Positions 36,285 to 57,200 of a stretch of DNA of 64,000 nt are shown in pieces. The stretch lies in contig JAPKBL010000005.1 of NCBI GenBank assembly GCA_028823415.1, positions 1 through 64,000 of the forward strand, written 5' to 3'. Position numbers and translations under genes: made by a program. This DNA is from Mariniblastus sp. GTDB taxonomy: Bacteria > Planctomycetota > Planctomycetia > Pirellulales > Pirellulaceae. The notes under the pieces are model-generated. The model was not told where the DNA came from, searched no databases, and saw only the letters and a list, made by a program, of their open reading frames with translations. How positions within the stretch are numbered: position 1 is the first letter of the stretch; every line of letters starts with the position of its first letter.

Positions 36285-37310
36285 TTATTTTGGCATTGCC
36301 GCATTCGACTCGCCAGGCGCTGGCGGGGAACTTATTTTTAAATTGCGGTACCAGACTTCGGCACCGTGATCGGTAAGCATGATTCGGCCTTTTGCGTTGC
36401 GACCAAAATCAGGCACATCGTTAAATTTACTTTCAGCGACTCGTTTTTTCCATTCAGCGTTTCCAATGGTTGCCGAGGCAATTGGTTGTCCGTTTAGCCA
36501 ATGGTCAATTCGGTTGCCTCGAGCAACGATCCGGCTCGTATTGAACTGGCCAGCGGGATTGATTTTTCGATTGGGATGAGGTTCGAAAAGAGCGTAGATA
36601 GAACCTGTGTCTTTCTTACTTGGAGGTTGGCCCGTCTTTCCGGAATCAAAAATTTGATATTCGTAGCCCAGCATTTTGCGACCATATTTTCGGACGCGAT
36701 ACTTGATGCCACTATTGCCGCCTTTGGCAATTTTCCATTCAAATGAGAGGTCGAAATCACCGTATTGCTCGCGCGTGACGATGTTGCCAATTCGCTTTTT
36801 CCCTCGCTTGCGATGAATGGTTCCATTGTTCACCTCCCAACCGGAAGGGACAGGTTTGCCATTTTCAAGGCTCCAGTTGTCGAGCGATTTTCCGTCAAAA
36901 ATTTCAGACAACCGTTGAGCTGGTTCCTGTTGAATTTCTGTGATCAGGTTGGGGGCTTCAAGTTGGTTGTCGTGGTCATGGATTGTTGGGATTCCGGTGG
37001 TCAACAGTGTGTTGGCCATGCCTAGTCGCGCATCATCAATTCCAGTGGGTAATCTGGATCGAGAGGGCGTGCCGGTGCCGGATGCTGAATGAGCGTCCGT
37101 GAAACGGAATCCTACTTTGGCAGGCGCATTCACGTGAGGCTTCTTGATTTTGGACTGCGGATTAAAAGCCGTGCAATCGCCATAGCCAAGATCGTCGGCG
37201 AGAATTAAGACGATGTTGGGTTGATCAGCCAGGCTCGCGGCTGAAATAAAGCAAAAAGTGAGGAATAGGTAACTCACATTTGCGACTTGGCGTACGATCA
37301 TAGTTGCCAT
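36285..37310 (-). CDS. DUF1080 (3-keto-disaccharide hydrolase-like) protein with degenerate, truncated N-terminal sulfatase segment
   Basis: N-term QPNIVLILADDLGYGDCTAFNPQSKIKKPHVNAPAKVGFRFTDAHSASGTGTPSRSRLPTG, then DUF1080-like IFDGKSLDNWSLENGKPVPSGWEVNNGTIHRK...GNIVTREQYGDFDLSFEWKIAKGGNSGIKYRV. Confidence 0.88.
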   Translation of the reverse strand: MATMIVRQVANVSYLFLTFCFISAASLADQPNIVLILADDLGYGDCTAFNPQSKIKKPHVNAPAKVGFRFTDAHSASGTGTPSRSRLPTGIDDARLGMANTLLTTGIPTIHDHDNQLEAPNLITEIQQEPAQRLSEIFDGKSLDNWSLENGKPVPSGWEVNNGTIHRKRGKKRIGNIVTREQYGDFDLSFEWKIAKGGNSGIKYRVRKYGRKMLGYEYQIFDSGKTGQPPSKKDTGSIYALFEPHPNRKINPAGQFNTSRIVARGNRIDHWLNGQPIASATIGNAEWKKRVAESKFNDVPDFGRNAKGRIMLTDHGAEVWYRNLKISSPPAPGESNAAMPK

Positions 37311-37979: not shown

Positions 37980-39962
37980 TTATTTGCGAAACTTACTTTG
38001 GGGAACCAGAAATCCTGCTCGGATGCTGACATTGCTAATGCTGCCGGGTTGCCCGTCGGGAAAGGAAATGTAGATGACATTGCGTGCTTTCAGGTCGGTT
38101 GGATCAAGGCGGATGATTTTGCAAGATTTGTATGCCTTGTCCGTCAGTCGGTTAGCGCATTTCTCTAATGGCACCTCGTACGGTTTTCCGTTGACGGTCA
38201 TGGAGATTTCTTTATCGAACTCGGGTGCGCGATTCACACCGATGCGTAAATTGGCATATTCAAGTTGATCTGCTTCTGGAATTTCAACCGTGAAAGCCCG
38301 CTTCCTTCCTTGGTCGAGATTTACGTCAAGGCGATTGCCATAACAGGGGATTTCGTTGATTCTTTGACGCGGTTCAATTGCTTTTGCGTAGGTTGATTTA
38401 ATGAGGACTGTCTCCCGCCCTTTAAATCGAAAGTCGTAGGATGCGTTTTTATGGAGGTTGTTGTTTGCTGTTTTGCTTCCGACGGGGCGTTTCGCTTCAG
38501 CTAGGTAGGGAGTGAAGTCAGCGTTGCGCCCAAGACGACGGACTTGCATTTCAATTGGGCGTGGCAGATTGATTGAAACAAATTTATTAGCGTTTGAGAG
38601 ATTGTTGAGAACGACAAAAACAGTATCGCCATCGACAAACGCTCGCGTTTGAATGTCGGGATCAGGGCATGAGGAAGTGATTCGGTTTCCACGTAAATCC
38701 CGGAACAGGCGATAGAACAAAATCTTTTTGCTGGGCAGCCAATCGGTTTTATCTGTGAAGTTTCGCGGAGTGTAAAGTGTGGCGTAGTACTTTGGGTCCC
38801 AGTTCATGCTCTCCAGCAGAATAAACGGAACTGCCTTCAATACCGTGTGCGGATGATCCATGAACACTAGCGTGTTTGCGATTGCGCTACTAACCATGTT
38901 GAAGTCGTCGATCGACCGTTTTTTCATTTCCCATTCGAATCCGGTTTCTTTAAATTGAGCATCAACGGCAAGTTGTTGAACTAATTCATTGCCACCGTAA
39001 CCACCGTGTTCGCTGACGACGATGTCAACCTCTTTTCCATAACTGTTAACGGTGTAGTTTTGGATTTGATCTAATAGTGATTCCAGTGGCAGGCCACTTT
39101 GAATCACTCCGCCAAAGTTACCATCTTTTTCACGGAGGAAGTCGTAAACATGGAATGAGTAAAAGTCCAATTTGCATTGGGTGTTGTCAATGAAGGGCTT
39201 GAGGTTCTTCTCCCAGATTGGAACGGCCAGGCAGGGGCCTCCCACCAGTACGCCGGGAACTTCCCGGTGGACCGTTTTCATCGTTGCCAGATGCCAGTTG
39301 GCTAAATGTTTACTTTGCAAATATGACCAGTGCGGTTCGTTGATTGGTTCATAGTATTTCGGTCGGTCGAAGTCGGTGAATCGATGGTGAAGCGCGAGTG
39401 CTGATAGTTCAGCCGCAGCTTCCATGTTTTTTGGAAGTCGCTGAGCGTGTTTGTCTTTTCGGGCAGATTCCGTTTGGTAGATGCCCATGAATTCGGGGAA
39501 TGCGTTTCGAAAGCCATGCGCTGCAATGTCCAGACGATTGTTCATGTCGTCTTTAAAATCGGCGCGAGATGGATTCGATGTCACTTTTTTGATTAGAAAT
39601 TCTTTGTCGACAAATCCACGGCGGCTCGGATCTTCGCGGATGGCCTTTTGATACTCGTCCAGCCCGTTGACCACTTGCAGCGTTCGCCCGAACGTGATTC
39701 CGTTGTTTTCGATTAGCCATTGGTAGCGAGCAGGTTTAATGCAGCGTTTTTTAAATTCGGAGCCCGGATCACAAATGCCGAAGTAGGCCTCGCGGTTAAG
39801 TTCGGTCGTTCCTTGAATACTTCGAATTGAAAAAGGATCAATCGAAATATCGACTTTGGGTTGAGTGCGAATGGGTTGGTTGGGTGGATTCTGGCCATTT
39901 GCCGAATGTTCCAGTAAACAACTCGCTAAAGCGATTGTAAAAATCAATTTAAGGTTATTCAT
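37980..39962 (-). CDS. Secreted glycoside hydrolase, beta-agarase/porphyranase-like (GH86-like)
   Basis: Likely start MNNLKLIFTIALASCLLEHSANGQ; clan GH-A-like acid/base region YYEPINEPHWSYLQ and nucleophile-like VVSEHGGYGGNE; C-terminal beta-sandwich-like domains. Family call from recall only. Confidence 0.62.
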   Translation of the reverse strand: MNNLKLIFTIALASCLLEHSANGQNPPNQPIRTQPKVDISIDPFSIRSIQGTTELNREAYFGICDPGSEFKKRCIKPARYQWLIENNGITFGRTLQVVNGLDEYQKAIREDPSRRGFVDKEFLIKKVTSNPSRADFKDDMNNRLDIAAHGFRNAFPEFMGIYQTESARKDKHAQRLPKNMEAAAELSALALHHRFTDFDRPKYYEPINEPHWSYLQSKHLANWHLATMKTVHREVPGVLVGGPCLAVPIWEKNLKPFIDNTQCKLDFYSFHVYDFLREKDGNFGGVIQSGLPLESLLDQIQNYTVNSYGKEVDIVVSEHGGYGGNELVQQLAVDAQFKETGFEWEMKKRSIDDFNMVSSAIANTLVFMDHPHTVLKAVPFILLESMNWDPKYYATLYTPRNFTDKTDWLPSKKILFYRLFRDLRGNRITSSCPDPDIQTRAFVDGDTVFVVLNNLSNANKFVSINLPRPIEMQVRRLGRNADFTPYLAEAKRPVGSKTANNNLHKNASYDFRFKGRETVLIKSTYAKAIEPRQRINEIPCYGNRLDVNLDQGRKRAFTVEIPEADQLEYANLRIGVNRAPEFDKEISMTVNGKPYEVPLEKCANRLTDKAYKSCKIIRLDPTDLKARNVIYISFPDGQPGSISNVSIRAGFLVPQSKFRK

Positions 39963-40356
39963 TGTTGGTGGCGGTAAGTTGCATCGGGTTAAAAAACAAA
40001 TCAAATGATAGCGAATGCTAATTTAGCGAATAAATAGGCTGGGGTGAACTAACGGAGTATCCATTTGAGCCTGCGACTTAGGATTAGGTTTGAGAAATTT
40101 CTACGCCCATTTTATATGAACCGAATGACGTGCTTTCTGAATGGTTTCTGTTCAAATAGCTTTAAGTTAGTAACTTTGATTGAGAGGGAATTTTGAATCA
40201 AATTTCTTTATTACAACAATCATTGACACAAATTATTGCAAGTTTTCATTTATAAAATTGTCCACGAAATCACCGCTTTCTGGTTTTATTGCAGAGGTGT
40301 ACGCACTGTCCTGCTTCGGACGATGTGATTTGTTGAAAAAAGAAACAGGAAAAGTG

Positions 40357-41334
40357 ATGAAAAAAGTCGACACACTTGTCTGCATGGCGACCGCATTGCT
40401 GGCGATCACTGGCGTCCTTTCAGCAGATGACAATGGCAATCCTGCGAGTCAAAGCAAAAGTAAAAACTTTCGAGGATCGTATTACGTTAACGGCGAAATC
40501 CACGTTAATACCTATGGTCAACCAGAGGGCAAACCGCTTACCACCGGTCACCACGACTTTAAGCCATCCTGGTCAAAGACGGGTGACATGCTGGTCTTTT
40601 TCCGCAGGTTGAAAAACGATCCCGATGTATCGAAATGGAAAACGGCTATTCACATCATCCATATAGATGGAACTGGACTGCACCAACTAACCGACGGAAC
40701 GCACACGGACTTCAATCAAACCTGGACGCGCGACGGTAGCAATACGCCGATTTGGAATCGAAAGAACCCGAAGACGGGTGGCTACGTGGTGATGGCCAGC
40801 AAGGTTGGTGCAAAGCCTGGTGAGGAAGTCGCTCTTACCAGCAAGGGACATCATGCCTGGGCCTACACCTGTCTGATCGACGGTCGGATCCTGGTGCGAT
40901 CGAATCCACCAGGCCAGAGCATGGGGTACTACCTGATGACGCCTGGGAAGAACGTCAATCCGACGTTTGAACGCATCGAGTGTGAATTGGCAAAAACGGG
41001 AGTGCTTGACCGAGTCAGTCTCTCGCCGAGCGAAACGAGAGTCTGCTTCGAGTTTCAACGGGGGTTCAAGCGACGAGTTCCCGGGCGCACACTTTACGTT
41101 GCCGATTTCGACGCCAAGAACCGCAGGATCACCAATGCAAAGCCGCTGGCAAACGAGGATGGAAAACCGATCTGGTTTGCGTACCCACGGTGGTCGAAAG
41201 ACGAATCCTCGATCGTTTATCAGGCAGGCGGTAAGCTCTATGTCTACAAACCTAAAGACGGCTCGACGCATCAAGTCTCGAGAGACGACAAAGCTGACTA
41301 CCGTTATCCACACTTCGAAGACGCACCAAAGTAA
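40357..41334 (+). CDS. TolB/WD40-like beta-propeller periplasmic protein
   Basis: Signal peptide from MKKVDTLVCMATALLAITG; repeats HDFKPSWSKTGDMLVFFRR, HTDFNQTWTRDGSNTPIW, FAYPRWSKDESSIVYQAGGKLYVYK. Confidence 0.75.
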   Translation: MKKVDTLVCMATALLAITGVLSADDNGNPASQSKSKNFRGSYYVNGEIHVNTYGQPEGKPLTTGHHDFKPSWSKTGDMLVFFRRLKNDPDVSKWKTAIHIIHIDGTGLHQLTDGTHTDFNQTWTRDGSNTPIWNRKNPKTGGYVVMASKVGAKPGEEVALTSKGHHAWAYTCLIDGRILVRSNPPGQSMGYYLMTPGKNVNPTFERIECELAKTGVLDRVSLSPSETRVCFEFQRGFKRRVPGRTLYVADFDAKNRRITNAKPLANEDGKPIWFAYPRWSKDESSIVYQAGGKLYVYKPKDGSTHQVSRDDKADYRYPHFEDAPK

Positions 41335-41369: not shown

Positions 41370-42860
41370 ATGAAACTTAATCCGATAGTTATCGCAGCAA
41401 TAAAGAAGCCACTCGCAGCCAAACTGGTGATCGTATTTGTCTTCGTTTTCATAGTTGCTTTTGAGCAAATTCATGCCGCCGACTCAATCGAAAATCCGAA
41501 CGTTTTATTCATCGCAGTCGATGACTTGAACGACTGGGTTGGCTGCCTCGGCGGACATCCCCAAGCGAAGACTCCCAACATCGACAAACTGGCTCGCAAG
41601 GGAATCCTCTTCGAGCAGGCCCATTGCGCTGCTCCTCTCTGCAGCCCCTCGCGTACCGCGATCATGATGGGGCTCCGTCCATCAACAACGGGTATTTACG
41701 GCAATCTGAATTGGTTTCGCGATATGCCAAAATACAAGGATTGGGTGACGTTGCCGCAATATTTCCGCAAGCATGGGTATCTCGCCTGGGGCGGCGGAAA
41801 ACTTTATCACCAGGCTCACGGTAAATTCTCCGATGCCGCCGCGTGGGATCATGTCTATTCAACTCGCACTGGTGCAGTCCCACCGCCGAAAGAGGACCGC
41901 TACAAGCACGGATTGCGCCCCAAGTTTGAATCCAATCCCATCCTCGCCCGACTCATCGACTGGGGGCCAACCGACGCCCCGATGGAAGCGAATCCCGATT
42001 GGAAGACCGCGGACGGCGCCGCTCAGTTTTTACAGCGAGATCATGACAAACCTTTCTTCCTTGGTTGTGGAATCTACCTGCCTCATCTTCCCTGGTATGC
42101 CCCTAAGAGGTTCTTCGACATGCATCCACTGGAAGAGATTGAACTTCCGCCATACAAGGCTGACGATTTCGATGACATCCCCGCGATTGGCCGGCGGATG
42201 GGCGAACGTCACATCAAGCACATTCGTGAAAGCGGCAAATGGAAGGAAGCTGTCCAAGGCTGCCTCGCAGCGGATTCGTTCGCTGATGCCTGCGTTGGCC
42301 ATGTTCTTGATACACTCGAAAAGAGTCGTTATCGAGACAACACAATTGTTGTCCTGTGGGGCGACCATGGTTACGACGTGGGCGAAAAGAAGATCGCCAA
42401 GTCGGCGCTCTGGGAGCAAACGACCCGGACACCGCTGATCATCTATGCACCGGGCAAGTTGTCGATCGGCACACCGGCCGGTGGAATGACTTGCGAGAGT
42501 CCGGTCAGCCTTGTCGATCTCTATCCGACGTTGCTAGATTTATGCGGCTTACCGAAAAACCCGAAGAACGAAGGGAGAAGCCTCGCCCCGTTGGTTCGTG
42601 AGCCGAAGGCCGACTGGCCGTATCCGGCAATCATAACGCACTCACCCCACTGGCTGGGTATTAACCACGCCGTTCGCTCACGTGAGTTTCACTACATTTG
42701 CTACAGCGACGGTGGCGAGGAACTTTACGACGTCCAAGCCGATCCACTTCAGAGGAAGAACGTCGCCGATGACCCGGCCCGCGCTTCCGTCAAGGCGGAA
42801 TTGAAAAAATGGCTCCCGCAGAAAAACTCGCCGCACTTCGGCGCACCTAATCGGAAATAA
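41370..42860 (+). CDS. Sulfatase (iduronate-2-sulfatase-like)
   Basis: NPNVLFIAVDDLNDWVGCLGGHPQAKTPNIDKLA; CSPSR-TAIMMGLRPSTTGIY; WGDHGYDVGEKK. Confidence 0.93.
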   Translation: MKLNPIVIAAIKKPLAAKLVIVFVFVFIVAFEQIHAADSIENPNVLFIAVDDLNDWVGCLGGHPQAKTPNIDKLARKGILFEQAHCAAPLCSPSRTAIMMGLRPSTTGIYGNLNWFRDMPKYKDWVTLPQYFRKHGYLAWGGGKLYHQAHGKFSDAAAWDHVYSTRTGAVPPPKEDRYKHGLRPKFESNPILARLIDWGPTDAPMEANPDWKTADGAAQFLQRDHDKPFFLGCGIYLPHLPWYAPKRFFDMHPLEEIELPPYKADDFDDIPAIGRRMGERHIKHIRESGKWKEAVQGCLAADSFADACVGHVLDTLEKSRYRDNTIVVLWGDHGYDVGEKKIAKSALWEQTTRTPLIIYAPGKLSIGTPAGGMTCESPVSLVDLYPTLLDLCGLPKNPKNEGRSLAPLVREPKADWPYPAIITHSPHWLGINHAVRSREFHYICYSDGGEELYDVQADPLQRKNVADDPARASVKAELKKWLPQKNSPHFGAPNRK

Positions 42861-42861
42861 C

Positions 42862-45336
42862 ATGAAACTCATCCTCACATTTTTTTTCTGCTTCCTGCTG
42901 GTTTGTCCCGGTTTTGCCAATGACAAACCGCCAAACGTCGTCACTCTACTTGTCGACGATCTTGGATACCGGGACATCGGCTGCTACGGCGGTCCCGTCA
43001 AGACCCCGGTCATCGACAAGTTGGCTGCCGAGGGCGTGCGCTTCACCGACTTCCACTCGGGAGCCGCCACCTGCTGCCCCTCGCGGGCCACCTTTCTGAC
43101 AGGCCGCCACCACTATCGCACCGGAGTCTACTCCGTCATCACCGAACGGCTTCACAAGATGCATCTCTTGAAGCGCGAAACAACCATCGCGGAGGTGCTC
43201 CGGGAAAACGGCTACGCCACCGCCCACTTCGGCAAGTGGCACCTCGGCATGCCCGTCCAGAATCGCGATAATCCCACCCCCGCCGATCATGGCTTCGACT
43301 ATTGGTTCGGACTCGTCAACGGCGCGGGACCCAGCCAGAAGAACCCCACCAACTTTCTGCGCAACGGCAAACGTGTTGGTAAAATGAATGGCTATTCCTG
43401 TCAGATCGTGGTCGATGAGGCTCTTGCCTGGCTCGATCAAAAGCGCGACGGCGACGAACCCTTCTTCCTCAATCTCTGGTTCAATGAACCGCACGACCCG
43501 ATCGCGGCGCCCGACGAGATCGTTTCTAAATATGGCGGGCTGAACGAACGGGAAGCCATCTACAGTGGCACCATCGACAATACAGATCGAGCCATCGGAC
43601 GCCTCGTCGCTAAGCTTGAGAAACTCGGTGAGCTGAACAACACCATCATCATCTACTCCTCCGACAACGGCAGTTACCTGCAAAAGCGAAATGGTGAACT
43701 GCGTGGAAAGAAAGGTTCGCTTTTCGAAGGCGGGCATCGCGTCCCCGGCATCATTCACTGGAAAGACGGGATCCCCGGCGGTAGGGTTGAGGACGAACCA
43801 GCTGGAGCCATCGACCTCCTTCCGACTCTCTGCGGGTTGATCGGCATCGACAAACCCGAGGGCGTCCGTCTTGACGGCTCTGACCTCGCGCCTCTACTCA
43901 CCAGATCAGGCAACTTCGAGCGGCATCAGCCGCTCTTTTGGATGAGTGGCGCGAACATGGTTCTGCGAATGGGTGACCACACGCTTTTCGCCTCCGGTAC
44001 TGCGAAATCTTCGATCGACTTCAAAACCGCCGATCGACTCATGAAGCAAATCAAAGAAGTCCTTGGCGATGATCTCGAAAAAGAGTTGGGCGGATTGGAT
44101 TTTCGCTCTCGCCTGTTCAACGGGAATTTCGCCAATCCCGAGGCTAATCGACTGAAGAATCAACACCGGGACTTGTACTACTTCAACGAAGCGTGGATCC
44201 CCGAACTCAAAAAGAGCGGGCTTGGCCGGGTTCAACTGTATGACCTTTCCAAGGATCCCAGTCAGAAAGATAATATTGCGCTGAAGCGTCCCGAACTCGT
44301 CGCCAGAATGAAAAAGCAGGCCGCTGCTATCCGCCGGAGTGTCATGGCCGAAGCTCCGGAATGGCTCACCCCAGAAGAACAGGCCGCCGTAATGAAGACC
44401 GGGGAAAACGGACCGCAACGGCCTGCCACCGGAGCACCCGACAACGATACCGCGAAGCTACTCGCCCGTATCGACAAGAATGACCTTCCAAAAGACTATG
44501 ACGTTAGCCGCCACCAGGCTTACGTCGACCGCGTTATGGCGGGTCTCAAACCGGAACAGCGTGCTCGGGTCGGCCAACTTTGGAAAGAGAAACGACGCCT
44601 GAGTCCTGAAATGAAGAACGTGGGGCAGTCCTTCGTTAGAATCCTCAATTATGTCGCCAATGGAGAGAAGGCGAATTCTTCGGCAGCGCCAAAGTCAGCT
44701 CTTTTGCCTGCTGAGAAGATCGAATTGCAACAGCGGACTGAAAAGGCCAGCATCGAAGAGAAAACTGGAATCCATCGGCTTTCGACAACCAAGCGTTCGA
44801 CGTATGACGCATTTTCGTATCTCAATCGAATTCCGGATACAGTTTACGAAGATGAAAGTGTAGAAGATTTTCTCGGCCGAATTTTTGGGCGCCTCGCAAA
44901 TCAAGAAGGGCGCATTTTATTAAAAGCTCCCACGGGAATGGACCGACTTGGATACGAAGGGCTAAAGACATTCTTGAATTATGATGGGACTGAAAGTGTC
45001 GGCAATTGTGCCGCCTGTCATACATTGCCGAATTTTACAGATGGCAAATCATACGTGACTCGCCATGGAACTGAGCCGAAGCCGACTCCCTCCCTGCGAA
45101 ATCCTGAGAAGCGAAAACTTGACTTACGTAGAATAGTGTTGCAAAAGATCGAGGCAGCAAAACAGAAACAGCAGGGTAAAGCGGATGATATTAGTGATGC
45201 CTATTTGGTGATGAAGCTGAGTGAGCAAGACGTCCCCGGCTTGGTCGCTTTTTTGAAACTGCTAGAAGATGAATCCGACAATCGGTTTCGACAATCGATC
45301 ATTGATGCGAAAGTACTTGATACGTCCGAAGATTAG
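42862..45336 (+). CDS. Sulfatase fused to a linker domain and a C-terminal c-type cytochrome-like domain
   Basis: N-term PPNVVTLLVDDLGYRDIGCYGGPVKTPVIDKLA, CCPSR-ATFLTG, YSSDNGS. C-term GNCAACHTLPNFTDGKSYVTRHGTEPKPTPSLRN (CXXCH at 45007-45021). Confidence 0.9.
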   Translation: MKLILTFFFCFLLVCPGFANDKPPNVVTLLVDDLGYRDIGCYGGPVKTPVIDKLAAEGVRFTDFHSGAATCCPSRATFLTGRHHYRTGVYSVITERLHKMHLLKRETTIAEVLRENGYATAHFGKWHLGMPVQNRDNPTPADHGFDYWFGLVNGAGPSQKNPTNFLRNGKRVGKMNGYSCQIVVDEALAWLDQKRDGDEPFFLNLWFNEPHDPIAAPDEIVSKYGGLNEREAIYSGTIDNTDRAIGRLVAKLEKLGELNNTIIIYSSDNGSYLQKRNGELRGKKGSLFEGGHRVPGIIHWKDGIPGGRVEDEPAGAIDLLPTLCGLIGIDKPEGVRLDGSDLAPLLTRSGNFERHQPLFWMSGANMVLRMGDHTLFASGTAKSSIDFKTADRLMKQIKEVLGDDLEKELGGLDFRSRLFNGNFANPEANRLKNQHRDLYYFNEAWIPELKKSGLGRVQLYDLSKDPSQKDNIALKRPELVARMKKQAAAIRRSVMAEAPEWLTPEEQAAVMKTGENGPQRPATGAPDNDTAKLLARIDKNDLPKDYDVSRHQAYVDRVMAGLKPEQRARVGQLWKEKRRLSPEMKNVGQSFVRILNYVANGEKANSSAAPKSALLPAEKIELQQRTEKASIEEKTGIHRLSTTKRSTYDAFSYLNRIPDTVYEDESVEDFLGRIFGRLANQEGRILLKAPTGMDRLGYEGLKTFLNYDGTESVGNCAACHTLPNFTDGKSYVTRHGTEPKPTPSLRNPEKRKLDLRRIVLQKIEAAKQKQQGKADDISDAYLVMKLSEQDVPGLVAFLKLLEDESDNRFRQSIIDAKVLDTSED

Positions 45337-45422: not shown

Positions 45423-47879
45423 ATGAGAAACGTTACTTTAGTTGCTTTGTTTTTTTGTCTTTTTTCCGGGCTTAACGGCGCCGTGGAGGCCGAGACAATT
45501 CGCGGAAAAGTCGTCGACCGGTTTGGCAGGCCTGTGGAAGGCGTCATGGTTTCTGCAATTGATGATGCACATCGAAAATGGACATCGGTCTTTTCACAGA
45601 AAGATGGTTCGTTTGAAATTGCTGATTTACGAAATGTTGATCACAATATTCGCACTCGATTGATGGGACTGGCAGATGAGTGGATCAGCGGAGTTGCGGC
45701 AGGCACCGAAGATATGGTGATCCAAACGCGTCCGGCTATCGGCGAAGAATTGGAATTGCAACGTCCGGCAAACAGTGCGTTCAGTATGCTCGATTTTGAT
45801 AATCCTCGGGACAAACTGAATTTCAAGATGATGTGCTCGTACTGCCATCAGGTAGGCACGCTTGGGTTTCGAACTCCTGAAAAACCAATTGACTGGGAAA
45901 CCATGTTGCGCCGGATGGACGGTTTTGGAGGTCTTTATCCACATACCCAGGACACCATCATCGGTCGATTGATGAATACTTATAAAGATGACGCGGTTGA
46001 TGATTGGCCAGCCTTCGTTCCTCCTCCGGCACCGACAGGGATGGCAGCGGCAGCAACGATCACGATGTGGGAAATGGACAAGCCTCTCGAAGGTTCATTC
46101 CATGACTTGGAAATAGGCCGTGATGGGAAGGTGTATGCAGTCAACATTAGCAGGCAGCGAATGATTGCGTTGGATCCCAAATCAGGCAAGCAAGACGTGA
46201 TTAAGTTTCCTGCGCGAGTGCACGCGCCCCATTCGATTGAAACCGCGAATGATGGAAGCCTATGGACGACAATGTGTGCCAGCGGAAAGATGGCTCGTTA
46301 CGACATTGAGACGGGAGAGTTTGAGGTCTACAGTAGTGCCGAGGCACCCAAGAAACGTGGTAATTATCCGCACACTCTGCGAATCAACCCGAAGGATCCT
46401 GAAGGCTTAATTTGGTACACCGATGCTGGATCGAATTCCTGTTTTTCACTCCATCCTGATACGCATGTCGTTAAGGAGTACAAATTGCTTAGTGCTGGGC
46501 AGGCGATCGGTGCTGGACGTGGAGAGTCGCGAGGGATCACGCCTTACGGGCTCGATTATTCACCAGTCGACGGCATGCTTTGGTATTCCAAACTCAATGG
46601 AAACCGGATCGGTCGAATCGATCCCAATGCGGAGGATGGTGATATTAAAGAATGGAACCCACCGTTTCGTGGACCGCGGCGTTTGCACGTTGCCCCTGAT
46701 GGAATGGTTTGGGTTCCCGGTTTTGGGTCGGGCGTGTTTGGTAAATTCGACCCCAATACTGAGTACTGGACTGTTTACGAATTGCCGGATTCTGAAAATC
46801 AAATTCCTTATGCTTTGAATGTCGACAAGGACGGAATCGTTTGGATTTGCGGTACGGGAAATGACACGATTAATCGGTTCGATCCTGTAACGGAGACATT
46901 CGTTGAGTTTCGATTACCGACACGTGTGTCTTATACACGCGAGATTGAATTTGGCGATGATGGCAGCATTTGGACGAGTACATCCGGGCCTGCGCGGCAT
47001 ATGGAGCGTGGCGTCGGGGCGGTGATTCGTATCTCGTTACCCGATGATTTGCCAGCCACGGGTGGTATTCGGTTAACACCAAAAGTTTATAAAGGCAATC
47101 ACGACATCGGCAATCTCGCCACCGCTCCAAAGGTGGAACGCAAAATGGCCCCCGAGCGAGAACAACTATACGCAAAAATCGACGCCAACCCGTTACCCGA
47201 TGCGTACAAAAAGATGCCTCACCAAAAGTGGGTCGACTCACGCCTGGCCGCCTTCCCAAAACACAAACGGAACCTCGCGGGTACGCTGTGGAACGAGTTT
47301 CGAAAGACTCATCCGGATCGCAGGAACGACGGGCAGTTCTATGTGAAGATCATCGACTACATCATCAACAACAACACGCCGGTAAAACGTCGCTTCGTGA
47401 AGAAGTGGCAACATCACTGGTTCGGCGACGCTCCGGATCGTCTGGGTAAACGAAATCTCGAACGAGGCCGCATGGTGTTCGAGCAGGCGACCTGCAGCCG
47501 CTGTCACAACATCGGGCCTGGCGAGAAGAAACTTGGGCCAGATCTAACCGAGGTTACGAAACGTTTTCGTGGATCAAAGCTATTGCAGCAAATCGTCAAG
47601 CCATCCGCTGAGATCCATAAGGATTTTCAAACTCAGATGATTCTTGGAGATGATGGTCGATTGAGGACAGGTTTAGTGGTCGAAGAAACCGAAGATGAAG
47701 TTGTCCTGATCCCCAATCTTTTGAAGCCCGACATTATCGAAAACATGAAGAAATCTTCGATTGAAGAACGTAATACGGCGGATGTTTCGACGATGCCTGC
47801 GGGATTACTGGATACTTTTTCGGTTGAAGAAATTCTTGATCTCGTCGCCTTCATTGAGTCCACTGGATCTGGCAATTGA
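45423..47879 (+). CDS. Carboxypeptidase-regulatory-like + streptogramin-lyase-like (Vgb) propeller + cytochrome c protein, two CXXCH motifs
   Basis: RGKVVDRFGRPVEGVMVSAIDD; CSYCH (45834-45848); repeated DGxxW propeller segments; CSRCH (47493-47507) followed by LGPDLTEVTKRFRGSKLLQQIVKPSAEIHKDF. Confidence 0.88.
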   Translation: MRNVTLVALFFCLFSGLNGAVEAETIRGKVVDRFGRPVEGVMVSAIDDAHRKWTSVFSQKDGSFEIADLRNVDHNIRTRLMGLADEWISGVAAGTEDMVIQTRPAIGEELELQRPANSAFSMLDFDNPRDKLNFKMMCSYCHQVGTLGFRTPEKPIDWETMLRRMDGFGGLYPHTQDTIIGRLMNTYKDDAVDDWPAFVPPPAPTGMAAAATITMWEMDKPLEGSFHDLEIGRDGKVYAVNISRQRMIALDPKSGKQDVIKFPARVHAPHSIETANDGSLWTTMCASGKMARYDIETGEFEVYSSAEAPKKRGNYPHTLRINPKDPEGLIWYTDAGSNSCFSLHPDTHVVKEYKLLSAGQAIGAGRGESRGITPYGLDYSPVDGMLWYSKLNGNRIGRIDPNAEDGDIKEWNPPFRGPRRLHVAPDGMVWVPGFGSGVFGKFDPNTEYWTVYELPDSENQIPYALNVDKDGIVWICGTGNDTINRFDPVTETFVEFRLPTRVSYTREIEFGDDGSIWTSTSGPARHMERGVGAVIRISLPDDLPATGGIRLTPKVYKGNHDIGNLATAPKVERKMAPEREQLYAKIDANPLPDAYKKMPHQKWVDSRLAAFPKHKRNLAGTLWNEFRKTHPDRRNDGQFYVKIIDYIINNNTPVKRRFVKKWQHHWFGDAPDRLGKRNLERGRMVFEQATCSRCHNIGPGEKKLGPDLTEVTKRFRGSKLLQQIVKPSAEIHKDFQTQMILGDDGRLRTGLVVEETEDEVVLIPNLLKPDIIENMKKSSIEERNTADVSTMPAGLLDTFSVEEILDLVAFIESTGSGN

Positions 47880-47984: not shown

Positions 47985-50900
47985 TCAATCGCTCAGGAAG
48001 CGTTTAGGAGGCTGTTCACCTTTCGGCACGATGCAAATCTCCCTTAAATCAATGAGACAATCATTAAGATGTCCCTCCGGACTCAACATGACACGTTGCA
48101 CTCCGGTCTTCAAATCTATCGTGCCGATCAATTTTTGCCGGTATTGGTCCCAAGTGCCCGTCGATTCGACATTTGAAATTATTTCAGCATTACCAAGCTC
48201 AAGGCGGTAAGAATTGTTTGCTGCCGATTTGGCAACCGCCCAGTCGAGATAGATATCATATTTGCCGGCAGCAACGATCTCCACTTTCCATTCCGCACGA
48301 TCATCTTCGCTCTGCCAAAATCCAAGGTTCCCATACCCTTGTTCATAAACAAGCGTTGGGCCGTAGACGAACGCCCGTGACGCGCGCAACCGCAGAACAC
48401 CTGACCCCTCCTCGGGTAACACCAATTGCGGTTGATTACCTTCGAATTGTTTGGGTGGCTGTCTCCGCTCAATAATATAGGCCACCAAATCGGCAAGCGC
48501 CTGTGGGTCGAGCGATGTTTCCAAACCCTGCGGCATCATTGATAAGGAGCTTCGGCGAAATCCTTCTTCTTCAATATCCTTTTTAAGCAAGGTATAGACT
48601 TCTGAATTTTGCCCTAACAGCGTGACGCTAGTGGAAGTTTCCTGCTGTAACAAGCCGGTGAATTGCCGCCCATCGGTCATAAGCACGATGTAATTATGAT
48701 ATTTATCCTCCACAGACCGCGCCGAATCAAGAATGTGGGTGGTCAGGAATTTGGGTGAAAGATCGGCCAATGCTGCAAGGTCGGGGCCAACCGCATGTCC
48801 CTGGCCAGCCAAACGGTGGCATTGAGAACACGTTTTTTCGAAATGGTGCTGGCCCTTGCCGGAGATTCCCCCTCGCCGAACGGCGGGAAGATAACGGTCA
48901 ATCACAATCTGGCGTTCAATATTATGCTGGCGTTTTAGGAGTTGGCCAGCTCGGTCGGACAAGTCAGTATTCGGATGAGCCATCAACACCTGCGAATATG
49001 CAAGATTGATGTCGGTTGGTTGTATTGTCCCCTTTTCCACCGAGTCCAAAAGCACGCGCGTGCTGACCGGCCTTTGCAAATAAAGCCCCACCAAGCGATC
49101 TCGCGTCAACGGGCCGTACTGTGGCCAACCCCCTAACACTTTTTCCAAAGGCCTGGTTTCGTTTACCCGGCCAATGCCTTGCAGCACAGATTGTTGCAAA
49201 TCGCGTGGCGTCTGTGGTAACAGAAGCGACATCGCCAAACCGATATCGTTGGTTGCAAAATCAGGGTCACAACTTAACAGGTTCAATGCCGCCGCCCTAA
49301 AATTTTGTGGCGTTTGGGGATCGATCAAGCAATCCCTCGCATGTATCCTCAAATCAGAAATCCATTGTCTTTTTTGGTCATCTAGGGTCAGCAAATCTAC
49401 CGATTGTCCATTTTCCCGCAAAACCTGATCGATATCGGCCAGCGCATTCATTTGCCAAATTTCATATTCCCCGGACCCATTTTTCATCAACAGAGCCAAT
49501 ATCCCAACAACTGAATCGAGATCTCCCAACCCAAGTGATGTGCGGATTAATGATTGCAGCGGTAAACTTTTGGCTTCTAAAATACCCTCTGTTTCGATGA
49601 CGCCAGCGAGAACATCGGCAGGCCGACTTTGGATGCTGCTAAGCGCTGCGGCGACAATATGGATATCCCCAGGGTGTTTGGCCAGAATTTTTCCGATTGT
49701 ATTTCTCGCGATTGGATGATCCATTTCTCCAAGTGAACAGGCGAGTTGTAAGACAACCTGAGGCTCTTGTTCCACTTCTTCCAGTCGCGCCAAAGCTTTG
49801 ACTATCGATTCCAGGATTTGGGGCCCAACGGCCTCGTGACTCCGCAGCAGTGTTGCATCCTCTGTCTTGTTCGTCATTCGATCCGAATTGATGAATTGTT
49901 CCGCAATACGCACAGAGTGGCGACGGACAGCCGGATGAGAATCGAGCAACCCTTCTAAAATTTGTTCCATCGCGACCGTTTCGCGACCCGCTAGAACACA
50001 AAGAGCCGCCAACCGCTGGCATGGAATTTGACTTGTAGTAAATGTGATCGCCAAACTTTTGTCGACCGCTGGATCCTTTTGCCACAGCAAAAGCCTGTGT
50101 GCAATATCTCGCTTTGTTCCGTTGGAATCGCCCAACTGATCAATCAATTGCCGTACTGAATACTTGGTCATATCGGAAATCGGCTTTGGTTTTTGTTGGC
50201 GAGGAACGATTCGATAAATGCGGCCAAGTTGGTGTCCCTCCCGCAGATCTAAACTCTTTTCAAGAACATCATCAATCCATTCGGGATGTTCAATGACCGG
50301 ACGATACATGTCGGTAATCCACAAACAACCATCTGGCCCGGTCCTTAAGGTGGTGGGGCGGAACCAGGAATCATTGCTTCGCAAAAATTCCGTATTGGTC
50401 TCGTTGGGCGGTTTCCGCGTGCTTTTTCGAACGCCGTCTTTCTTTACCACCCTTCTGTGAATGAGGTTGTGAACCGGTTCGCTGACGAACAGGTTTCCCG
50501 TGAGTGACTCCCCTAGAAAGTTGTCGCGATAAACCATTGTTCCACAGGCCGACGTGAATTGACTCGTCTGGCCCGCTGCCGGTGATTGATAACCGCTATA
50601 ATGACTAAGGATGCGACTAGCGGGAAAAAGCCCCCACTGGCCACCTCGATCGATGTGCCGCAGACTCGGCGACGTGACAAATGGATTGCGCTGCAGGTAG
50701 TGTTCATCCAGTACATACTGCATCATGGGGACGCTATTACTCGATCCCCACCAGTTTCCCCAACTGTCACGGCAACGTCCATGTTGCGTTTGCCCTGTTG
50801 TCGCCTCAATGCGGCCAGTGTCGGGCTTGATTCGCACGTCTCTCCCTTGGATATCTACCGTTTCATCGGTCTTAACAGAATGAATTTTGCCACCACTATC

Positions 50901-53222
50901 TCCATTGGCTAGGTAGACCCAATTGTCGAGTCCCCATCGCAATCCATTGACTCGATGCTGCTGATTTCCTTCGACAAATCCTGTGAACCAAGATTCGCGC
51001 AGGTCCGCACGCCCATCACCGTCGGTATCTTCGAGATACCAGACATGAGGAGCTGCCGTAATGAGCACACCGTTTCGCCAAACCATCAAATCGGTTGGGA
51101 AATTGAGCCCCTCTGCAAAGAGACTGCTGCGATCATATCGCCCATCTCCGTTGCTGTCTTCGAGAATCCGAACACGACCACCCGGCTTCCCTTTTCCGTC
51201 AACACCCAGAGGATAGTCCGCCATTTCAACGACCCAGAGGCGACCATCTGCCCCCCAATCGATCGCAACCGGGTCTTGTACCATCGGTTCAGCCGCCACC
51301 AGTTCGACTCGGAATTCGGGTGCTACCTCAATTGATCGGCGCGAAGCCTCGGGTGTTCGCGGCTCCAAGGCCTGGTCTCCCATCAAATCGGAAAAGGAAC
51401 GTCGCTCGACCAAGTCCGGCATCTGGCTGGTCGCTTCATTTTGCCACCAAACATGATTCCGGGAGACCCATGCACCATTGTTAGTTCCATTAATTACGAT
51501 AGGAGGTATGGCGCTGGAATCTGCCTGACGACCTTGCTGTGCCACACGACTCCACCCTTGCTCAAGAGAAGAGAACAAATGCAGTGAAAAATCTTTTTCA
51601 TTTGAAAAAAGGACGTCGAGATGTCCATCCTGATCGACATCGACAAATCGCATCCCGGCATCCTTGCCATTGGCATCGACCAACTCCGTCGTGGCGGGAA
51701 GACCAAACGGAAGGGGCTTCCATGTGTTTCCCTCTCGATCCCAAGACAGCACTTGGCCAGGCTTATTGCCGGCGATCAACTCACACACTCCATCATTGTC
51801 GAGATCTCTTAACCGAACACCCAGGTCACGGCCATTACGGGCCGTGAATATTGGTTTGTCATCAAGCACCAGGCCATTGAGCATGGTTGTATCTTGATTC
51901 CATTTCCCATTGGAAAAATGCCAGATACCTGCCTGCTGTTCGTTGCGGACCAATAGACTCGCATTGCCATTTTTTTGAGCAATGAAGAATTCAACACCGG
52001 CCGGTCGTGTGAGCCCGTCTGCATCGGCTCGGACAATCTGAACGGGAAAATCCGATTCGTGCCATTTCTCAGTCTCGGGATCCCATAAACGTGTTCGTTG
52101 CAGTTCCGAATTTCCAATCACAACATCGAGAAACCCATCGTTATTCAGATCGATCAAACGGACACCATTGTCTCGACCTGCGTCATCCCGCAAAGGTTGT
52201 CCAGCGAGTAGATGGTTTTCCAGACGTTGTTGATATTCGTGAAAATTCAGAAACTTGATCCGATTGCCATGTTCTTCGATGGCATGATCGATGAACTCGA
52301 TGATCTGGTCACTACTAATCCAGCCATGTGGATGAAAGACCAGAGACGTCGCCCCCTGTTTTAAAACGGTCGCATCGAGCGCAATTTTCATGTCTGCCAG
52401 AGTGCGGGGATTGTACGACTGTTGTACGTTTTGACCTTCCCAATCACTTGGGACGAGACAGGGGACTTCCCAGCACAGCCGACCGATTACGTAGGGATAC
52501 GGATAATCATCGATCGTATTTAGGTACGATGGGAAAGGAAGATAATGTCGAAAACGCGATTTGCCATCGGGTCGTGTTGCGATGTTGTCGGGCAAACTCG
52601 GATCGTCTGCAGAGAAGACGTGAAATACCGAGCTATCCATTCTGAGGAAATTACCCTCAGGTGTAGTTCGATTAAACACCTCCATCCAAAATCGTGGACT
52701 CGTCGAATTGATGGAATCACAACACGGCATCCGAAAAGCGATTGGCGAATTATTTGGAATATTCGCCATCAAGTCGACGCAACGTTCATAAGTACTGCGG
52801 GCGGTATCAAAGCTACGGTCGCGCAAGCATGGGCATGGATGGTCGATCGTGTGAACATCAAGGCTAAGACCCTGTTTGAGCCACGTCTGCAATTGCGGAT
52901 CATCGGCGTGGATAGAATTCGTCAAAATACTCAACGGCATCCGGCCATCGATCTCTGCCAAGCGATTGAGAATCGGACGCAAGAATGTTTCATAACGCGC
53001 CGTATCACGCATGTCGTCGATCGATAACACGATCACTCCTTGGACACCTTTTTCGCCCACCCACTGAGGCGTCACCAATTTGGGGAAATTACGATGAACG
53101 TAGAAAGGATCGCAGGGGTCCGAGAGATAGGCCAACCGATTTCCATCGCCTCTGACTGGCGAGAACAAAATTCCGACAACCAGGCTGGTTGAAATAACGA
53201 GCTTTGCAAAAATCTTTAACAT
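47985..53222 (-). CDS. 1745-aa secreted multidomain protein: polysaccharide-deacetylase-like + FG-GAP/VCBS + PVC-type membrane-bound dehydrogenase propeller + HEAT-like + cytochrome c + CBM-like
   Basis: VIVLSIDDMRDT with HTIDHP (deacetylase-like); DLNNDGFLDVVIGN repeats; RVRILEDSNGDGRYDRSSLFAEGLNFPTDLMVW; CSQCH (48816-48830) GPDLAALADLSPKFLTTHILDSARSVEDKY; C-term YDIYLDWAVAKSAANNSYRLELGN. Confidence 0.88.
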   Translation of the reverse strand: MLKIFAKLVISTSLVVGILFSPVRGDGNRLAYLSDPCDPFYVHRNFPKLVTPQWVGEKGVQGVIVLSIDDMRDTARYETFLRPILNRLAEIDGRMPLSILTNSIHADDPQLQTWLKQGLSLDVHTIDHPCPCLRDRSFDTARSTYERCVDLMANIPNNSPIAFRMPCCDSINSTSPRFWMEVFNRTTPEGNFLRMDSSVFHVFSADDPSLPDNIATRPDGKSRFRHYLPFPSYLNTIDDYPYPYVIGRLCWEVPCLVPSDWEGQNVQQSYNPRTLADMKIALDATVLKQGATSLVFHPHGWISSDQIIEFIDHAIEEHGNRIKFLNFHEYQQRLENHLLAGQPLRDDAGRDNGVRLIDLNNDGFLDVVIGNSELQRTRLWDPETEKWHESDFPVQIVRADADGLTRPAGVEFFIAQKNGNASLLVRNEQQAGIWHFSNGKWNQDTTMLNGLVLDDKPIFTARNGRDLGVRLRDLDNDGVCELIAGNKPGQVLSWDREGNTWKPLPFGLPATTELVDANGKDAGMRFVDVDQDGHLDVLFSNEKDFSLHLFSSLEQGWSRVAQQGRQADSSAIPPIVINGTNNGAWVSRNHVWWQNEATSQMPDLVERRSFSDLMGDQALEPRTPEASRRSIEVAPEFRVELVAAEPMVQDPVAIDWGADGRLWVVEMADYPLGVDGKGKPGGRVRILEDSNGDGRYDRSSLFAEGLNFPTDLMVWRNGVLITAAPHVWYLEDTDGDGRADLRESWFTGFVEGNQQHRVNGLRWGLDNWVYLANGDSGGKIHSVKTDETVDIQGRDVRIKPDTGRIEATTGQTQHGRCRDSWGNWWGSSNSVPMMQYVLDEHYLQRNPFVTSPSLRHIDRGGQWGLFPASRILSHYSGYQSPAAGQTSQFTSACGTMVYRDNFLGESLTGNLFVSEPVHNLIHRRVVKKDGVRKSTRKPPNETNTEFLRSNDSWFRPTTLRTGPDGCLWITDMYRPVIEHPEWIDDVLEKSLDLREGHQLGRIYRIVPRQQKPKPISDMTKYSVRQLIDQLGDSNGTKRDIAHRLLLWQKDPAVDKSLAITFTTSQIPCQRLAALCVLAGRETVAMEQILEGLLDSHPAVRRHSVRIAEQFINSDRMTNKTEDATLLRSHEAVGPQILESIVKALARLEEVEQEPQVVLQLACSLGEMDHPIARNTIGKILAKHPGDIHIVAAALSSIQSRPADVLAGVIETEGILEAKSLPLQSLIRTSLGLGDLDSVVGILALLMKNGSGEYEIWQMNALADIDQVLRENGQSVDLLTLDDQKRQWISDLRIHARDCLIDPQTPQNFRAAALNLLSCDPDFATNDIGLAMSLLLPQTPRDLQQSVLQGIGRVNETRPLEKVLGGWPQYGPLTRDRLVGLYLQRPVSTRVLLDSVEKGTIQPTDINLAYSQVLMAHPNTDLSDRAGQLLKRQHNIERQIVIDRYLPAVRRGGISGKGQHHFEKTCSQCHRLAGQGHAVGPDLAALADLSPKFLTTHILDSARSVEDKYHNYIVLMTDGRQFTGLLQQETSTSVTLLGQNSEVYTLLKKDIEEEGFRRSSLSMMPQGLETSLDPQALADLVAYIIERRQPPKQFEGNQPQLVLPEEGSGVLRLRASRAFVYGPTLVYEQGYGNLGFWQSEDDRAEWKVEIVAAGKYDIYLDWAVAKSAANNSYRLELGNAEIISNVESTGTWDQYRQKLIGTIDLKTGVQRVMLSPEGHLNDCLIDLREICIVPKGEQPPKRFLSD

Positions 53223-54286: not shown

Positions 54287-57200
54287 TCATTGCTTGCCTT
54301 TCTTACCGCATTCCCAGAGCCGAACCGAATCAAACACGATTTGGCAATCCGAGCCTCCCTTAAGGGAGAATCTTGGTCCGTTTTTATCATTTTCGTTGAC
54401 GACGGTGACCGTCTCGTGTTCGTAGGTTTTACTGCAACCGTTAACGCTCACTCTGATCGTCCCTTTCTTGTACTCGATGATTAGGTCGATCCACTCGTTG
54501 AGCTTCATGTCCGACTCAGGTTCGGTGTAAGTGGGGCCATCTGGCAGTTTGATTCGATGTCCCCCGCCTTCAAGGTAACTGAGAACGATCATGTGGTGGC
54601 CAATTTGAAAACTGGGACGACCCGGGGTGAGATCCTTCTTTTCAAATTTGTACCGCATGTGGCAGACAAACTGTTCGGGAATGCGATTGAGATGTACGAC
54701 CGGCTCCAGTCCTAGGTGGTGGTCACGCTTCAGCGCCGCGATGGCTTCTTCTTGGGATGTGAATAAGGAAGTCACGATCAGTTTACCATCCTTGATCGAT
54801 TTGTCCTTTTTAGGAAATCCAAAACGTTGTTGGTTAAACTCCCCATCAAAATCGTCGGAATAAACTAGCGTTCCAGTTTTAAACAGTTCTGACTCGAACT
54901 TCGACTGTTTGTCGCCAGGAGAATTTTTTGTCGCGGAAGTTTTTGTCTGAAACGCTTTGCTTTGAACGAGGGCATGAATAAATTCGCTGAGTGAGAACCG
55001 TTTGGTTTTGGCTGATCCGACAATTCCGTCCGCGAGATGTTCATCGGAGAACCCAAAGGGACGACCTAGTCCGTATTCGATCAGGTGCTCGGTGAGTCCC
55101 CGGGCGAAGTCTCCCTCGCGCTCGGTGATCAGATCGCGGAGTTCGTGATAGTCGCTGAAGTTTGGGCCTTTGTGGAATGCTCCTGAGGCGTCGATGGTCC
55201 AAGTCTTCCCCTGCTTCCCTTTGCCTCCGGCATGGTCCGTGGTGCGCCACTTACCAGCGGCGTTGAAGTTCTCCAGTCCGAAACCGATCGGATCGATCTT
55301 GCGGTGGCAACTTGCGCACTGGGCTTCTTCTTGGTGGGCGAGCAGGCGTTCGCGCGTGGTGAGTACCTGGTCATTCAGCCGAGAGATCTGGGGAACATTT
55401 GGCGGCGCTGGTGGCGGCGGATCGTTCAAGAGATGGCGCAGGACCCAGGCTCCACGTTCGATCGGGCTGCTATCGATGCCGTCACTGCCCATGGCGTGGA
55501 TAGCGGCCATACCGAGTAATCCGCCCCGAGGCGAATCGGCGGGCAGTTTGATTTTTTGGAACCTGTCGCCAGAAACACCTTCGATACCGTAGTAGGTGGC
55601 GAGCAGGCCGTTAACGAACACGTAGTCGCTCTTCAAGAGTTTCCCGATGCGACCGTCTTTTGAATCGCGTAGCAGGTGGGCGAACGACTGATAAACCTCT
55701 TCGCGCGTGGCTGCTCTGGTGCTTTCATCAAAATCTCGATGAAGGTTGACGTCAAACTGAAAGAAATCGAGTCGTTCCATGTCGAGCCACTGATGGACGA
55801 ATCCGGAGACGAATTCATCCGAACGCGGATCGGCAATCATTCGATCAACCTGCTGCCGAAGCGTTTCTTGGAGGTGTAGTGTGTTCTGCTCTGCGAGCTT
55901 GAGCAGTTCTGCGTCTGGTGGCCCGCTCCAGAGGAAGTAGGCCAAGCGCACGGCCAATTCTCGATCAGAGAGTTGGCGCGACCCAACCGCGTTGCTGGGT
56001 TCATTGAGGTAGAGGAAGCTAGGTGATGCGAGAATGATGCTGAGTGGCATACGAATTGCAGTCTCGAATGAGTCACCGGACTCTCGACGCGCGGCGAAGA
56101 TGTCAGTGAGGCGATCGATAAACTCGACCTCTGCTTCGACACCGCGGAAGGCTTTGAAAGCGAACTGTTGCAGGATCTCGCGTGCCCGGGAGGAATCGTC
56201 GGGATCGATGGCATCGTCGGGATCGATGATCCACCAGTCGTTCCTGCGAGTATCATTATTGGACGCATTCAGCGGTCCTTCGAGTTCCACCCAGTCGATC
56301 CAGATTGCCGGTGGATGTCCGTAGCCGTTTTCGTTCTTCAGATTGTTGTGCGCATCCCAAAGCGCTTTGAGATTTCCGTTGTTGGGCTGTTTCTCCTGAA
56401 CTGCGAATTCGCGAATCGTATTGGCGGTGACCTCGAGTGGAATCTCGATCGTTTCGGGATTGTCGATGGTGCCGGTGACTTGATGAGTACTGATGGCTCG
56501 GCCTTCGAGTCCCCAGTTTCTGCTTTCAATCTGGCGTTGAGGAGGTCCCACCTGAATGAAACGTCGCTCGGCAGGAGTGCCTTCAACAGCCCCGACACGC
56601 ACACGCATGATATAGCTGCCGGGCGTTAGTTCCTTTTTCTTGGCAGGAACGATGATTCGACCGGTGCCATGAGCAAGCTTTAGGTAGGTGCCGCGGTCGC
56701 GATGTGGCAGGCCGACGTAGTGCTTGTGAAGAGCTAGACTTCGGCTTCGTGAAGGATCAGATGCGGCAGCTTTTTTCGCGTCGCTAAACCCGAACTCCCT
56801 TGGATTGGGAGTATCTTTTAACCGGTCGGCAAAAGTATAAAATCGGTTAGGGTGATCGATCAGGCGATCCGTCTTTCGAATCTTGGCAATGATCGCTTGA
56901 TTCTCAGCGGTCTTGGCTGCCTCATCGACTCCTTTCTTCCACAGCCCGAATCGTTTCTGACGCTCTTCGGTCTGCGCGATTTCTTTCTCGTTCGCCGGAT
57001 TGATTGTCTTCTCAGGCTCAACGCGAACAATTCTGGATTCAGTGTCCGCAGTCTCACTGATTGGCCCGGTCAGCTCAATCCAGTCGACCCAAATTGCGGG
57101 AGGAGTGCCGTAGCCGTTCCTCTGCTTGTATATGGAGAATTCATTTCTGAGAATTCTTTTACTATCTTCGGGTTGGCGTTCCCGAATCCCCAGTTCGCGT

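Follow-up and report, generated by a model that had tools for sequence, protein, structure and literature searches.

Planctomycetes encode sulfatases by the hundred, along with many c-type cytochromes whose purpose is unknown, and genes of the two kinds often lie side by side. In a 64,000-nucleotide stretch of DNA from a Mariniblastus genome (the window), a sulfatase and a c-type haem domain are encoded by one gene, which raises the question of what a haem could be doing on the same chain as a hydrolase.

The fusion gene and its surroundings

The gene at 42862-45336 is a single uninterrupted forward-strand reading frame, ATG to stop, of 824 residues. It holds the sulfatase and the haem segment in one frame, exactly within the limits that the original prediction had given, and that prediction did not include the linker domain between the two, the partner gene at 45423-47879 or a step in base composition inside the gene. 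The features of the locus are as follows.

37980..40004, minus strand: porphyranase-like protein, divergent from the sulfatase operon (Pfam Porphyrn_cat_1, E 2.8e-11)
40180..41334, plus strand: TolB/PD40-like propeller protein, head of the putative operon (Pfam; counterpart in relatives L042 and L043)
41370..42860, plus strand: upstream sulfatase, a single base ahead of the fused gene and putatively in the same operon (ORF list, Pfam)
42862..45336, plus strand: sulfatase, linker and mono-haem domain fusion gene, 824 aa (single frame; counterpart in L042-L046)
42862..42921, plus strand: probable Sec signal peptide MKLILTFFFCFLLVCPGFAN (by eye from the sequence)
42925..44376, plus strand: type I formylglycine (FGly) sulfatase domain (Pfam PF00884; motifs intact across fused homologues)
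43072-43074, plus strand: codon of the FGly cysteine, Cys71, within the sulfatase domain
44419..44691, plus strand: linker domain, ~90 aa (similar to a stretch of ORF 45423-47879)
44755..45333, plus strand: mono-haem domain, a homologue of the haem domain at the C-terminus of CCP/MauG proteins (Pfam, profile, Foldseek, hhalign)
45423..47879, plus strand: partner (VGB), 818 aa, with CarboxypepD_reg, CSYCH haem, virginiamycin-B-lyase-like propeller, linker and TIGR02603 haem domain in that order (Pfam/NCBIfam, Foldseek, co-occurrence)

Pfam places the sulfatase at residues 24-329 of the fusion protein (E 8.7e-67) and a Cytochrom_C domain at residues 715-799 (E 9.1e-5, which passes the curated cut-off), with the CAACH motif at residues 716-720 (nucleotides 45007-45021). 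The helical linker domain, residues ~520-610, matched no Pfam or NCBIfam family and is homologous to a segment of the downstream gene (39% identity over the matched stretch, E 8e-11). The same ~90-residue unit (44419-44691 in the fusion, about 47112-47381 in the partner) turns up in sulfatases and PQQ fusions as well as in the propeller partner, and is a candidate new domain.

A step in base composition at the domain boundary is what one would expect had an assembly or sequencing error merged two genes, an explanation that we regard as hardly credible. Like fused genes occur as 33 complete frames from separate genomes, and coding periodicity runs unbroken through the sulfatase/haem junction. 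The original prediction had named a sequencing error near 44400-44700, or a want of orthologues with the same architecture, as grounds for doubt. A counterpart gene of 743-824 residues is present in five further Mariniblastus genomes (L042-L046, one with a masked stretch), and fused genes were found in 36 genomes of the family; the separately assembled same-genus orthologues, together with selection on the haem part, exclude such an error.

The base-composition step has another reading. Third-position GC is 0.68 in the sulfatase, 0.59 in the linker and 0.44 in the haem domain, and this step between sulfatase plus linker and haem domain indicates that the window gene is a chimera. The window sulfatase shares 85% identity with an unfused sulfatase-linker gene in genome G215 and only 54.5% with the fused sulfatase of the same genome, which lies 15 bases downstream of the unfused gene. 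The window haem domain, unlike the window sulfatase, follows the fused lineage. The simplest account is that the chimera arose by recombination or deletion between tandem genes arranged as in G215.

The gene context of the fusion is directed at glycans. The porphyranase-like neighbour hints at a red-algal sulfated galactan as substrate, and the surrounding window genes encode several sulfatases, acetylesterase-type proteins, a Gfo/Idh/MocA oxidoreductase, a 3-keto-disaccharide-hydrolase-type domain (DUF1080) and PSCyt/DUF1552 proteins. The DUF1080 and Gfo/Idh/MocA genes lie about 5 kb from the fusion on the opposite strand. Since DUF1080-type proteins act on 3-keto-sugars produced by periplasmic dehydrogenases (PMC9007349), oxidative glycan cleavage would be a reasonable setting for the fusion system, and 3-keto-sugar chemistry is offered here as a lead only.

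Three further loci of the window, all on the minus strand, are of note. At 36285-37310 a sulfatase N-terminal stub (signal peptide, DDLGYGD and a degenerate GTPSRSR) precedes a DUF1080 domain, and looks like a decayed sulfatase acting as a leader. The gene at 47985-53222 is convergent with the sulfatase operon; its 1745-residue product weakly matches polysaccharide deacetylases, bears FG-GAP repeats, DUF7133 and also a cytochrome c domain, and is a possible second hydrolase-cytochrome fusion. At 54287-59736 a PSCyt1/PSCyt3-PSD protein of 1417 residues adjoins a DUF1552 protein. The same type of pair follows the fusion operon in relatives, where a PSCyt3 protein and a DUF1552 protein lie directly downstream of the partner.

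The sulfatase and haem domains

The sulfatase part is predicted from its motifs to be a catalytically complete type I formylglycine sulfatase. The CCPSR and DNG motifs noted in the original prediction are present, the former as the FGly motif CCPSRATFLTG at Cys71, along with GKWH, DD and the downstream Lys. Across 28 of 28 aligned fused sulfatases the metal-site DD and DN/DH, the catalytic GKWH and the Lys are kept, and the catalytic Cys is retained in every complete fusion examined, with CSTAR/CSPAR variants of the motif in some relatives. The full catalytic set is thus held in common with type I formylglycine sulfatases (family S1, PF00884), among which the nearest solved relatives are arylsulfatases and carrageenan sulfatases. 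The window protein differs in its ~300 additional C-terminal residues, linker plus haem domain, and the fused sulfatases form a subfamily of their own with a conserved extension. In a tree of 62 sulfatases the fusions of the family and their unfused, linker-bearing sisters make up one clade (SH-aLRT 99), separate from the other sulfatases of the window genome. Profile scores separate the subfamily as well, with full-length members mostly at 750-898 bits and the next class at 613-663 bits.

The haem domain was assigned to the CCP/MauG group because three lines of evidence agree. Its profile aligned to the haem domain at the C-terminus of L047, a MauG-type protein from a gammaproteobacterium, with an hhalign value of 98.7% (E 4e-16). 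Against the PDB, the top profile match was a weak one to 1iqc, a di-haem peroxidase (E 0.008). An AlphaFold model of the domain (pLDDT 83) returned CCP/MauG structures for all of the top 20 Foldseek matches, albeit with weak E-values (0.05 and worse) and TM of about 0.4, the best being 6e1c, a MauG-like copper-homeostasis protein. A single-sequence search of the PDB with the fusion C-terminus gave no direct match, and the relationship was recovered by profile only. The likeness of the C-terminus to a CCP/MauG-type haem segment, noted in the original prediction, is borne out by the hhalign result and by a structural model, a check recommended there. An identity with the planctomycete PSCyt cytochromes was also considered and rejected, as neither the fusion nor any of the 34 haem-domain members scanned has a Pfam match to PSCyt1/2/3.

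The domain shares its sequence profile, fold class and CxxCH...TPSLRN layout with the di-haem family (CCP_MauG, PF03150), from which it differs in having one haem, no N-terminal peroxidatic domain, a deleted Met-ligand segment and an attached hydrolase. The fusion chain contains one CxxCH only, as opposed to the two haems of a CCP/MauG protein. In the aligned haem domains, the segment between CxxCH and TPSLRN, where a distal Met or Tyr ligand was sought, is shortened and has no conserved Met, His or Tyr. The sole conserved Met is M693, upstream of CxxCH; it and H638 are candidate sixth haem ligands. The CxxCH itself is kept in 41-42 of 42 members, and the domain is under purifying selection, with dN/dS of about 0.12-0.13 when the window is compared with two relatives and of 0.07-0.22 over all eight pairs, near the values of the sulfatase part. 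Taken together, these features suggest that the haem domain descends from the electron-transfer half, the C-terminal one, of a di-haem CCP/MauG protein, and haem binding is predicted.

The resemblance to MauG brings up a protein-modifying role like that of MauG or MbnH, in which the haem domain would oxidize a residue in either the partner or the sulfatase, and might even convert the active-site Cys to formylglycine. The best fold match is MauG-like, sulfatases need an oxidized Cys, and the radical-SAM sulfatase maturase family (TIGR03942) has no match in the window genome, which is about 93% complete. Against these points, the single haem comes from the electron-transfer half while the peroxidatic half is absent, and several of the haem proteins have no sulfatase. 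As for formylglycine maturation itself, it is judged unlikely, since the window genome has five FGE-domain matches and more than 200 sulfatase matches for only one such haem fusion. We consider a protein-modifying role very improbable overall.

Distribution, partner gene and repeated origins

Profile searches found the haem domain in 41 of the 241 family genomes, most of those surveyed being draft metagenome assemblies, and in 15 of 68 genera, leaving most family genomes (about 83%) without the system. In a phylum-wide set of 343 genomes it was present in four, namely the window's own and three of family f86, where it stands alone; three other families of the order also have it in a few genomes. 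A sulfatase is encoded in the same gene as the haem domain in 36 of the 41 genomes (33 complete frames, two contig edges and one frame break). Of the remaining five, G031 has the haem domain fused to an S15/AXE-type esterase, with the sulfatase located elsewhere; G026 has it attached, at a contig edge, to the terminal part of a PQQ-type propeller; in G177 and G261 it stands alone; and in G237 it is a decayed remnant. The standalone haem protein of G177 has a sulfatase about 3 kb upstream, and the association of haem protein and sulfatase thus persists unfused in G177 and G031. In raw counts over the 241 related genomes, the full-length fused sulfatase subfamily is present in 43, and 39 of these also carry the haem domain; just 2 genomes with the haem domain lack this subfamily, and 196 have neither.

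The constant companion of the haem domain is the gene directly following the fusion. Its product is predicted to be a Vgb-type seven-bladed propeller with two haems: the propeller matches Pfam Vgb_lyase (E 2.9e-25), and its model, of moderate quality (pLDDT 70, the C-terminal haem part being unreliable), matches 2z2o by Foldseek with E 3.5e-17 and a TM of 0.86-0.90 of the target. Both CxxCH motifs and His 227, 270 and 317, which fall on consecutive blades, are kept in 15 of 15 partners. These three His are invariant, whereas the catalytic and metal His positions of Vgb are not retained in the best pairwise register. The partner occurs in 40 of the 241 family genomes and shares 38 of them with the haem domain's 41, again as raw counts over related genomes. 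Its start overlaps the fusion stop codon by 4 bases in 24 loci, and in the window 86 bases separate the two genes. Linkage of the partner to the haem domain is near-obligate. Partner relatives retain 67-90% identity, and haem domains far less, at about 32-89%.

The fusion between sulfatase and haem domain arose at least twice. In family f8 the haem domain sits on a member of an unrelated sulfatase subfamily, one related to the sulfatase that immediately precedes the fusion in relatives from Mariniblastus, and the full partner is present in 2 of 3 f8 genomes on another contig. Placing all fused sulfatases in one clade is rejected (AU p 8.1e-10, in a tree that has long branches), which rules out a single origin, and profile scores of about 190 versus over 750 bits also support the f8 split. 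In families f86, f14 and f19 a standalone haem protein of about 216-247 residues adjoins a shorter, one-haem propeller protein, and this arrangement is probably the older form.

Other architectures recur among these loci. Triple fusions of sulfatase, linker, PQQ propeller and haem domain, 1282 and 1334 residues long, occur in G175 and G210. Three frames appear derived or decaying: a sulfatase leader (signal peptide) plus linker and PQQ propeller without the sulfatase (L113 5866-7773, G010), a haem protein with a sulfatase-like signal peptide (L129 5738-6493, G177), and a fusion remnant with a partner tail in one frame (L107 4113-5075, G237). Tandem frames of two sulfatases of the same subfamily, about 1000-1700 residues long and sometimes with the linker, were seen at L184 (G177), L191 (G115), L187 (G212), G209:C154 and G201:C104, and multi-enzyme sulfatase chains seem common in these relatives.

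Such rearrangements lend themselves to an account in which adjacent genes of an operon merged again and again because the haem protein thereby gains the signal peptide and equal dosage of the upstream gene, with no functional coupling to the sulfatase. Tight gene packing, repeated joins with partial decay (G177, G010, G237) and the chimeric third-position GC step all fit this account. It is less at ease with an intact sulfatase in every complete fusion examined, with maintenance of the fusion across many genera, with a second family having again picked a sulfatase, and with a sulfatase subfamily that tracks the haem domain even when unfused. A fusion of convenience is in our view unlikely, yet it is a serious rival.

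Proposed function of the fusion

As far as catalysis goes, it is true that a sulfatase requires no redox partner, and therefore the haem is probably there for the partner protein and not for the sulfatase. Our leading explanation, put forward tentatively and at somewhat less than even chances, is that the haem domain docks to and exchanges electrons with the propeller cytochrome, and so keeps a desulfating enzyme within an oxidative complex for glycan degradation. An exported sulfatase would carry a single c-type haem domain via a helical linker. This domain would be the redox and docking partner of the two-haem virginiamycin-B-lyase-type propeller, with the sulfatase tethered, and the two proteins would form a periplasmic complex. 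The sulfatase would remove sulfate esters from an algal oligosaccharide, and the propeller/haem part would perform, or drain electrons from, an oxidation of the same sugar, possibly followed by elimination. Periplasmic oxidation of the desulfated sugar is favoured because the neighbourhood is glycan-directed. From architecture and conservation we infer a redox function for the fusion, and likewise that haem is bound, that the two proteins touch, that electrons flow and that the substrate is a sulfated glycan. The original proposal was of electron-transfer-linked localization or coupling to an oxidative step. It fits the two-haem propeller neighbour and the redox and polysaccharide context, and goes beyond the results in the oxidation itself. 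Several points weigh against an electron-exchanging complex: the peroxidatic N-terminal haem domain and the CCP Met-ligand segment are absent, the partner yielded no dehydrogenase cofactor site, and the great majority of family genomes do without the system. In addition, the haem protein is unfused in several genomes, and therefore tethering is not essential.

The haem domain may have a docking or co-export role. A second serious rival is docking without chemical coupling, in which the haem domain anchors a cargo, usually a sulfatase, to the propeller cytochrome, and electron transfer belongs to the partner's pathway with no chemical tie to desulfation. The cargo does vary (two sulfatase subfamilies, the S15/AXE esterase, the PQQ-type propeller, or none) while haem domain and partner stay constant, and the linker is common to fusion and partner. 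A pure anchor, however, would not need the CxxCH that is kept almost without exception, and we regard docking alone as somewhat unlikely. A bolder variant is that the split-off MauG-type haem domain and the haem-bearing lyase-type propeller constitute a two-protein oxidoreductase that acts on a glycosidic (or ester) bond by oxidation and subsequent elimination, the built-in sulfatase allowing desulfation and oxidation in sequence on one substrate; this we rate as quite unlikely. If true, a two-protein oxidoreductase with a built-in sulfatase would be a previously undescribed oxidative glycan-degrading machine.

Known systems offer partial parallels to an electron-exchanging complex. In anammox hydrazine synthase (PMC12758564), a CCP-like gamma subunit is paired with a haem-bearing propeller alpha subunit, and the pairing of a CCP-type haem protein with such a propeller is common to both plans; the analogy is a loose one, as propeller type and haem count differ. 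Quinohaemoprotein dehydrogenases likewise have a propeller with a haem electron acceptor, and relatives of the fusion have PQQ-type propellers fused or nearby, although here the haem domain is usually on the sulfatase and a PQQ site is not among the features shown. Sulfatase genes have been reported near planctomycete-specific cytochrome genes, the function of those cytochromes being stated as unknown (PMC5615132). These PSCyt1-3 proteins with PSD domains share with the fusion the superphylum, a c-type haem and the sulfatase neighbourhood, and some loci have both; their haem domain is different, and they are neighbours of sulfatases whereas the fusion is one chain. No published sulfatase-cytochrome fusion was found in the open-licence literature, which is weak evidence given that subscription papers, for example on Rhodopirellula sulfatases, fall outside that scope.

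The recurrence of the sulfatase-haem fusion across many genera, with at least two origins, suggests that desulfation is physically tied to an undescribed oxidation step. One chain joining a sulfatase and a haem, kept over many genera, is strong genomic evidence that the breakdown of sulfated polysaccharides is coupled to periplasmic electron transfer, and the fusion and its partner provide a small, expressible protein with a defined partner for probing the roles of planctomycete cytochromes.
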